64,000 bases of DNA from Methanosaeta sp. PtaU1.Bin060 (GTDB taxonomy: Archaea; Halobacteriota; Methanosarcinia; Methanotrichales; Methanotrichaceae). Below are positions 10,430-13,126 of the stretch, one piece after another. Numbering within the stretch: position 1 is the stretch's first letter; the number at the start of each line of letters is the position of its first letter. Under the pieces are notes generated by a model that did not search any database, was not told where the DNA came from, and was given only the letters and a program-made list of their open reading frames with translations. A program made the position numbers and the translations under genes. Location of the stretch: NCBI GenBank assembly GCA_002067365.1, contig MVRK01000115.1, positions 1-64,000 on the forward strand. Direction: 5' to 3'.

Positions 10430-11089
10430 TCAATTCCTCTCTTCTCTTGGACGCTCAGGGCCCCCGATCTTCACCTCAGCGGCCAGGTTCTTGTTTGCCA
10501 GGTTCCTGGCATGAACCGCCGGGAGGGCCACTACGTCGTCCTCAGAAAGGCGGTAATTCCTCCCGTCCACCCCCACGAAGACGGGAACGCTCTCAAGCAT
10601 CCTCACCACCTCGTACTCCGCAGACGCCCCAGCATTCGCTGGCTTTTCTGTATGGGACAGATGGGCGAGGATAGTCTCGCGCCCTCTCATGATGGCCAAT
10701 AGAAGGCTGCGGTATATCTCCTCCTCCTCCTCTGTCATCCCCTGGACATCATCCTGAGATGCGGAACGCGCGTTCCTGACTGCTTTTCGAACGATCTTCT
10801 TCATCCTCTGGTCGATGAGCTTATTCATGCTGTTCTTCTCGCTCTTGAGGGTGTCCTGGAGAATTTGAGCCTCCACGCCGTACGGGTCCAGCACAGCCGA
10901 GAGCTCCTGAGTCAGACTGACAAGATAGGCTCCAACCTGCCGGTAAAAGTCCTTCTCAAGGTGCTGAAGCTCAGCGGTCTTCCGCTCATCCCGAAGCGTG
11001 TTGGCCAGATCCAATCTAAATCCCTCGCAGCGATGTGCGCTGATCTCTCCCCTCGAAATGCCAGATATCAGGGCCTCATGCAGTCGCAT
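10430..11089 (-). CDS. Archaeal GINS complex subunit (Gins51-like)
   Basis: 219 aa. The N-terminal helical region (about 15-140, including LQHLEKDFYRQVGAYLVSLTQEL) and a small C-terminal beta domain (VPVFVGVDGRNYRLSEDDVVALPAVHARNLANKNLA) match the A-B domain order of archaeal Gins51. It belongs to the replicative CMG complex with MCM and the GINS-associated nuclease. It lies 39 bp downstream of priS, the conserved archaeal gins-priS pairing that supports the assignment. It has no clear ribosome-binding site. Confidence 0.85.
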   Translation of the reverse strand: MRLHEALISGISRGEISAHRCEGFRLDLANTLRDERKTAELQHLEKDFYRQVGAYLVSLTQELSAVLDPYGVEAQILQDTLKSEKNSMNKLIDQRMKKIVRKAVRNARSASQDDVQGMTEEEEEIYRSLLLAIMRGRETILAHLSHTEKPANAGASAEYEVVRMLESVPVFVGVDGRNYRLSEDDVVALPAVHARNLANKNLAAEVKIGGPERPREERN

Positions 11090-11128: not shown

Positions 11129-12334
11129 CTAAAACTTTGCCCGAGCCTCTGCCACGCCCCGAGCCGTGAGGAAGACTGCCAAGTGCATCGGCACTTCTGC
11201 CTCACCCTCTGCCAGGCGATAGCTCTGTCCCCTCATCTCTGTGCTGAAGGGCTTCATAATCTCGATTGACATTGGCTCGTCTCCGAAGACGACGGCATCC
11301 TGAAGGGGATCGAACTCCTCCAGGCTCGCCATTGTCAGCGGCGTTACCCGCAGTCCTGAGCCCCCGTGCAGGCTCCCCGGGCAGCGGATCAGCCTGCGCA
11401 CATCCGCTGTGACAGGCTCGTCCGTCTCGCCACGCTCCTCATCCAGGCTGAAGCCCATCTTCACGCCCTCGCTGTCCAGATACTCCACCAAAAGCTTCTT
11501 CCAGATGCCCGAGCTGCCTCGGAAGAGGTCGAGATTTCCCCGGCGTATCTCCTCAGGAACGCTCTCCTTCAATATGCTCCTGTAAAAGCTGGTCGCCCTT
11601 TTTGGCCCTATTCCCTTGCTCCGAGTCAGTATTTTCACCGCCTCTTTCTCATCGAGGCTGCGCAGGTTGTTCACGAATGAGCCTATGGAGCGATTGATCC
11701 TTTTTCCCCAGCCTGCTGCACCTTCGGCGGGCGCTCTAAGTCTGGATGCCCTCTCTCCACCGCTCTCGCCTTCGAGAGGTGCCTCGCAGATGAACCTTTC
11801 CATAGACAGGCCCCTGCCAGCGAGATAATCCACGATCTCCCGTCGTTCGCTGCTTCCTATAGTCAGAACCCTCGTATCCCTGACGTGGATATGGTATCCT
11901 CGTCCGCCTGAGAAGACAACGCTGAGGTTCTTCTCGGCGAAGCCGAAATCGGACGTGAGAAAACCCAGCAGCTTCAATGTCTCCTTCTTCACGAGGCCCA
12001 GCATCTCGCCATAGGATCTCGGAGCATTTCGCAGATGATCTGCATCAAGGTCGAAGATCAGATCGGCACCTTTCCAGATCTTCTCCTTCATCGTGGGCGC
12101 TCCGGGCCGCTCGTAATATGCGGCTGAATGGTAGACATGAGCGGGCACCATGCTGCGAACATAGTCCGCCAGCTCGCCGCGGGCGAGGAAGGACTTGTGG
12201 CGGCGCATGCCTATATCGTCGAAGAGGATGAAGCCCCACTCACGTGCCTCCATTTCCGGCGGCGTCTCCAGGGATGTCTTGAGGTAGTACTCCCTGAACT
12301 TCGAGGTCAGGAAATATCTGGTCAGGGCGTTCAG
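11129..12334 (-). CDS. priS: DNA primase small (catalytic) subunit, apparent CTG start
   Basis: Synthesises RNA/DNA primers together with PriL. The catalytic aspartates are in DLIFDLDADH (about D95 and D97), with SGGRGYHIHV and RRLIRCPGSLHGGSG as further primase motifs. The conserved N-terminus (LTRYFLTSKFREYYLKTSLETPPE) lies upstream of the first ATG (12253), so an ATG start would remove 27 conserved residues. That frame has no ATG, GTG or TTG between its upstream TGA and 12253. A CTG at 12334 is preceded by AGAGGAGG at 7 bp, and it overlaps the stop of a 20-codon ORF as CTGA. Length from CTG is 401 aa. A +1 frameshift from that short ORF is the alternative. Confidence 0.88.
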   Translation of the reverse strand: MNALTRYFLTSKFREYYLKTSLETPPEMEAREWGFILFDDIGMRRHKSFLARGELADYVRSMVPAHVYHSAAYYERPGAPTMKEKIWKGADLIFDLDADHLRNAPRSYGEMLGLVKKETLKLLGFLTSDFGFAEKNLSVVFSGGRGYHIHVRDTRVLTIGSSERREIVDYLAGRGLSMERFICEAPLEGESGGERASRLRAPAEGAAGWGKRINRSIGSFVNNLRSLDEKEAVKILTRSKGIGPKRATSFYRSILKESVPEEIRRGNLDLFRGSSGIWKKLLVEYLDSEGVKMGFSLDEERGETDEPVTADVRRLIRCPGSLHGGSGLRVTPLTMASLEEFDPLQDAVVFGDEPMSIEIMKPFSTEMRGQSYRLAEGEAEVPMHLAVFLTARGVAEARAKF

Positions 12335-12393
12335 GCTGAATCCTCCTCTGGGCGAGATCGAGTCGTCTCAAGCGGCCTGTAAGTCTCAACCAT
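12331..12393 (-). CDS. 20-codon ORF overlapping the priS start
   Basis: ATG 12393 has the Shine-Dalgarno sequence GAGGTGG 5 bp upstream, begins MVETYRPLETTRSRPEEDSA and stops with a TGA that overlaps the proposed CTG start of priS. It could be a leader peptide that couples priS translation to the upstream nitrilase gene, or the true N-terminus joined to priS by a frameshift. Confidence 0.4.
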   Translation of the reverse strand: MVETYRPLETTRSRPEEDSA

Positions 12394-12403
12394 CTCGACC
12401 ACC

Positions 12404-13126
12404 TCAGTAGACCTCCGGCCTCCTGTCGGAGAGACAGGGTAGAGAGTGCCTCACAGCATCGCGTTCCTCCAGGTCGATCTCGCCGAAGATCACCGTCTCT
12501 CCGGGCCCTGCCTCTGCCTGCACGCCGCCACCTGCGTCCACGATGATTGATGTCCCGCCCTCTGAATAGTTGCAGGCCAGGTGAGGGATCTGGTTCTCGA
12601 TCGCCCTGGCGATGCATAGCACTCTCCATTGCTCTATGCGGGATGCGGGAAACTGCGCCACTGTGATCAGGAAGTCGGCGCCCTTGAGCGCCAGAGCCCG
12701 CGCGACCTCGGGAAAGCGCAGATCGTAGCAGACCTCCAGGCCCGCCATCCCCCACGGCGTTGCCACGGGCGAGATGAAGTCGCCGCCATCGAAGTGCTCC
12801 TTCTCGACGCCGAAGGGATGGATCTTGGGCCGCAGATCGAGGCTCTCCGAATCGAGGCAGAACCCCAGGTTTTGTCTGCCGCTGCGAATCGAGCCTGCGA
12901 TCAGGCAGCTGTGCTCGCGTGCCAGAGCCCTGAAGGGTTCAAGAGATGGATAGGGAACTGCATCATCCGCTTCAGTTGCATAGCAGAAGCCCGTCAGGAA
13001 TAGCTCTGGATAGACCAGGATCTCGGCTCCTCTGCCGATGGCCGAGCGAGCAAGCTCCAGGGCCCTTCGCAGGTTCTCCTCCCGGCCGCAGGGCTCGACA
13101 TAAAGCTGGATGCAGGCGGCACGCAT
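12404..13126 (-). CDS. Carbon-nitrogen hydrolase (nitrilase superfamily)
   Basis: 240 aa. The Glu-Lys-Cys catalytic triad is visible: YPELFLTGF (E41), LRPKIHPFG (K101) and EVCYDLRFPE (C133). The family hydrolyses omega-amides, N-carbamoyl compounds or nitriles; the substrate cannot be read from the sequence. It is first in a likely minus-strand unit with the 20-codon ORF, priS and gins. Confidence 0.9.
   Translation of the reverse strand: MRAACIQLYVEPCGREENLRRALELARSAIGRGAEILVYPELFLTGFCYATEADDAVPYPSLEPFRALAREHSCLIAGSIRSGRQNLGFCLDSESLDLRPKIHPFGVEKEHFDGGDFISPVATPWGMAGLEVCYDLRFPEVARALALKGADFLITVAQFPASRIEQWRVLCIARAIENQIPHLACNYSEGGTSIIVDAGGGVQAEAGPGETVIFGEIDLEERDAVRHSLPCLSDRRPEVY

Follow-up and report, generated by a model that had tools for sequence, protein, structure and literature searches.

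The priS locus

The window, a stretch of 64,000 nucleotides, is part of contig 115 of a draft genome (2.78 Mb, 136 contigs) of an uncultured methanogenic archaeon of the genus Methanothrix. Its minus strand carries priS, encoding the catalytic (small) subunit of DNA primase (11129..12334; 401 codons, from CTG 12334 to TAG 11131-11129), with a nitrilase/carbon-nitrogen hydrolase family gene (12404..13126) as the upstream neighbor and a gene for a GINS-type replication protein (10430..11089), with a weak Sld5/Gins23 match, as the downstream neighbor. PriS matches the NCBIfam profile NF001639 over its whole length (residues 4–397 to profile positions 4–388/391, residue 4 at profile position 4, E = 3e-108) with a score of 362 bits, under the curated cut-off of 577, while the scores for TIGR00335 (176 versus 143.5) and PF01896 (Pfam DNA_primase_S) exceed their cut-offs. 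From residue 1 onward it is 62–73% identical to full-length PriS of other Methanothrix species. Compared with archaeal PriS, the protein itself is ordinary and its start codon is the sole oddity.

The priS frame is closed upstream by an in-frame TGA (12368..12370, minus strand) and, as the preliminary description had stated, contains no ATG, GTG or TTG from there until ATG 12253. Between TGA 12370 and the CTG start codon (12332..12334, minus strand) the sole AT-type near-cognate codon is ATC at codon -8. The CTG is preceded by the Shine-Dalgarno (SD) sequence AGAGGAGG (12342..12349, minus strand), of which AGGAGG (12347-12342) begins 13 nt before the CTG. The SD complements the 16S rRNA 3′ end ...GGATCACCTCCT, as read in G001, a closed relative that we take to be M. 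soehngenii GP6. Only 5 of the 2930 CTG triplets in the window (0.17%) have a 6-nt SD match at exactly this distance, so the priS SD is more than a chance occurrence, and the good spacing claimed for it was borne out.

The start codon across Methanotrichaceae

priS was found in 47 of 50 family genomes, mostly as a single copy. The gene and its upstream DNA were read in 23 loci of the genus and in the ten remaining genera of Methanotrichaceae, and codon columns were counted in 44 long PriS sequences of the family. Two loci of genus g11 (L054 and L055) encode PriS with an insertion of approximately 200 residues between conserved blocks, in a 602-residue frame. One genome (L016 and L024, on G014:C203) carries a complete priS, whose upstream DNA differs, and a second, truncated priS, which sits behind a nitrilase-like gene about 1.5 kb from the full copy. 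An apparent internal TAG in priS of L029 was rejected, being the terminal stop of the gene.

The codon aligned to CTG 12334 was ATG in 14 of the 44 sequences, TTG in 11, CTG in 10, GTG in 7 and ATA in 2; the column is thus NTG in 42/44 and ATA in 2/44, and the alignment with relatives that the preliminary description had proposed places a start-type codon at the identical position throughout the family. For comparison, 48% of Leu codons elsewhere in the same priS genes are NTG, the median for comparable hydrophobic columns is 45% NTG, and of 63 hydrophobic columns just three are more NTG-restricted than the start column, all of them invariant methionines. Since seven sequences have GTG, which would encode Val, the column is better explained as a start codon than as a Leu residue.

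The distance from this column to the first conserved helix is constant in the family alignment, and every same-genus locus whose sequence extends to the N-terminus conserves LNALTRYFLTSKFREYY there, starting at codon 1. The claim that conserved residues precede the first ATG therefore held, conserved PriS sequence beginning at CTG 12334. In most same-genus loci the SD lies at a register distance of 13 nt, as in the source genome, alike for CTG, TTG, ATG, GTG and ATA sites, and 13 nt is also the commonest SD register distance in the genus. L012–L014, L018, L025, L028, L047 and L050–L052 have an in-frame stop three codons before the column and no start codon in the interval, which makes an earlier start impossible in these relatives.

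CTG occupies the start column in 12 same-genus loci. Apart from the source genome, L005, L006, L011 and L027 have no canonical codon in the 11 codons before the CTG, and 7 of the other 11 CTG loci have an in-frame ATG 1–5 codons upstream that might serve in place of the CTG. On the tree, well-supported branches force three changes to account for CTG at the priS start, so that CTG was gained repeatedly, or gained and then lost. Of the two ATA sites, that of G001 (L014) is preceded at the same distance by an SD of 8 nt, with ATG at codon 6 as an alternative, and that of L020 has an SD match of just 3 nt.

The 20-codon open reading frame and alternative readings of the start

An open reading frame (ORF) of 20 codons (12331..12393, minus strand; ATG 12393, TGA 12333-12331) ends in a TGA that overlaps the CTG of priS. 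It is preceded by GAGGTGG and is probably incidental. In nearly all same-genus loci read, the 3′ end of the nitrilase-family gene adjoins or overlaps priS, its stop either overlapping the priS start or preceding it by approximately 10 nt; the source genome has approximately 60 nt more between the two genes. The ORF is located in this stretch, which is absent from the relatives, and the GAGGTGG after the nitrilase stop now stands in front of ATG 12393. The ORF was absent in all other species read. In the window, 12% (ATG only) to 20% (ATG, GTG or TTG) of TGAs terminate an ORF 20 codons long or longer. An xTGA at the priS start is automatic: the first base of codon 2 is A, so there is always a frame that terminates at this point. 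The ORF exists as the preliminary description had it, but its coupling to priS found no support, as the ORF is not conserved and its length is ordinary by chance; with no counterpart in relatives and a chance rate of 12–20%, neither coupling nor a frameshift is supported.

Termination-reinitiation downstream of the 20-codon ORF, as the main route to initiation at the CTG and a form of leader-peptide control, would be compatible with a CTG start, and of the alternatives it fares best. The 4-nt overlap between the TGA of the short ORF and the CTG of priS is formally of the same geometry as the ATGA/GTGA overlaps of Haloferax volcanii, as coupled genes in archaea usually have -4 nt overlaps (PMC10666635), and a CTGA coupling geometry occurs at hemL-hemC in Methanotrichaceae. 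Against this, and unlike in H. volcanii, the short ORF is not conserved, being unique to the source species among those read and of a kind expected at 12–20% of TGAs, and the CTG has a strong SD of its own; the geometry is conserved at hemL-hemC only. Reinitiation as the main route is accordingly judged unlikely.

A +1 frameshift, or a base missing from the assembly, could join the 20-codon ORF to priS and give PriS a 20-residue N-terminal extension from ATG 12393. A plausible SD precedes the ORF, which is offset by 59 nt, and a single-base change would fuse the frames, but no relative has such an extension or a conserved upstream frame, the segment itself being missing in all other species read. 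Moreover, the CTG has a 6-nt SD upstream, at the conserved distance of 13 nt, a match found by chance at the 0.17% given above, and RNA folding around the priS start revealed no unusual structure (z = -0.28). The frameshift offered in the preliminary description is therefore very improbable.

Even less credible is a start at ATG 12253, the first in-frame ATG and the choice of common gene finders, which would yield a shorter PriS of 374 amino acids: it lies outside the conserved start column, and it would lose 27 residues that are conserved in family members and in part align with solved PriS (1zt2, residues 9–102 aligned). Another near-cognate start, for instance the ATC that lies in frame at codon -8 within the open stretch, can practically be discounted, as the ATC is not conserved, the CTG column is NTG or ATA throughout the family, and the SD is spaced to that column.

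The hemL-hemC overlap

hemC of the source genome (G000:C130:24042-24971, minus strand; L185) was compared with the family loci L186–L214. In 30/30 family loci there is a 4-nt overlap between the hemL stop and the hemC start column, and the codon in this column is CTG in 25, TTG in 2, ATG in 1 and CTA in 2, the two CTA loci having a GTG two codons further on. At 11 of the 30 loci, the source genome among them, there is no ATG, GTG or TTG for the next 11–45 codons. From the conserved N-terminus and the geometry, we infer that hemC starts at the CTG column. The hemL-hemC CTGA overlap resembles the common archaeal ATGA overlap used for termination-reinitiation (PMC10666635) and is what truly corresponds to the coupling that had been proposed for priS.

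Other CTG starts in the lineage

Orthologs were compared between 593 kb of the source genome and 1.6 Mb of G001 (M. soehngenii), with overlap filtering against shadow ORFs, which gave 188 pairs. Besides priS, three genes of the source genome seem to be CTG-started: ribL, hemC and a gene for a secreted protein. The ribL-like gene, for an FAD synthase (G000:C130:16165-16638, minus strand; family loci L215–L244), has the CTG start in the source species only, and the start column is TTG, ATG or GTG in the other 29 family loci. The secreted protein gene, on contig 75, has CTG in the source genome versus TTG in G001, with an SD. The CTG cases amount to approximately 2% of the 188 ortholog pairs, a rate that is just indicative, given a small sample, cases judged by visual inspection and the lack of a clear CTG excess in the SD metagene. 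When codons were counted by distance from SD matches, ATG, GTG and TTG peaked at register 13–16 and CTG had no clear excess, so CTG starts must be rare overall, which limits how common they can be. An unbiased joint start caller was also tried and rejected: it returned non-canonical starts, widely spread over codons, for 75 of the 188 pairs and was too noisy for a rate.

Two further genes are less certain. A sodium/solute symporter-like gene (G000:C111:28917-30272, plus strand) has ACG at SD distance in both the source genome and G001, and in the source genome its first ATG lies approximately 20 codons in, within the apparent first membrane helix. A UspA-like gene (G000:C29:274-798, minus strand) has ATC, versus ATG in G001, with a 6-nt SD match. 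In both genus g11 genomes the ribL match contains one in-frame TGA (G048:C31:9787-10206 and G049:C138:3205-3624).

Interpretation

priS is very probably translated from CTG 12334, which the ordinary initiator tRNA would read as Met, helped by the strong SD. Counted against this is the draft state of the assembly (136 contigs), in which an upstream indel is possible. A rare CTG start in an essential gene, one of the two readings of the preliminary description, is strongly supported by the family-wide alignment, and the near-cognate start of this essential replication gene appears, from these genomic comparisons, to be conserved and well supported. The start site would be ancestral for the family, comparison showing its location and SD spacing, and only the first base of the start codon (in two species the third) would have changed, to give ATG, GTG, TTG, CTG or ATA. 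Weak initiation may keep primase low, which is an attractive idea, and CTG starts would be used sparingly for a few other genes of the lineage. The priS case would belong to an apparent use of CTG starts at the level of the lineage. A broader proposal is put forward tentatively, at somewhat less than even confidence: that Methanotrichaceae have relaxed start-codon selection, with CTG (occasionally ATA, perhaps ACG or ATC) starting approximately 2% of genes, a weak but conserved priS start and a family-wide CTGA overlap for reinitiation at hemL-hemC, all missed by pipelines that allow only ATG, GTG and TTG.

The CTG start of priS is a real case of a rare kind of start codon, not a new mechanism. 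In Ribo-seq of Methanosarcina mazei, a methanogen of a related lineage, CTG starts 5% of unannotated translated small ORFs (PMC11456600); related archaeal ribosomes can therefore use CTG, and a CTG start is in itself not of a new kind, although those cases are unannotated small ORFs whereas PriS is a conserved housekeeping protein. Reconstructed switches of start codons to CUG are very rare, at 2 of 61,358 ancestral AUG and 1 of 2,468 ancestral UUG (PMC5622118). As with other rare non-AUG starts of prokaryotes (CUG, AUU, AUA), the priS SD is in the usual place and the codon varies among relatives at a fixed site; in contrast to them, the priS CTG recurs in one essential gene, through three forced changes, with ATA in two species. 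The unusual point is this recurrence of CTG in a conserved replication gene. A search of the literature on CTG starts in archaea and on start codons in Methanothrix returned nothing direct.

For the acetate-using methanogens of this group, gene finders that forbid CTG will truncate proteins like PriS, HemC and RibL. The priS site, at which ATG, GTG, TTG, CTG and ATA interchange, is a natural test of start-codon discrimination by archaeal initiation factors, and likewise of whether weak initiation keeps primase scarce.
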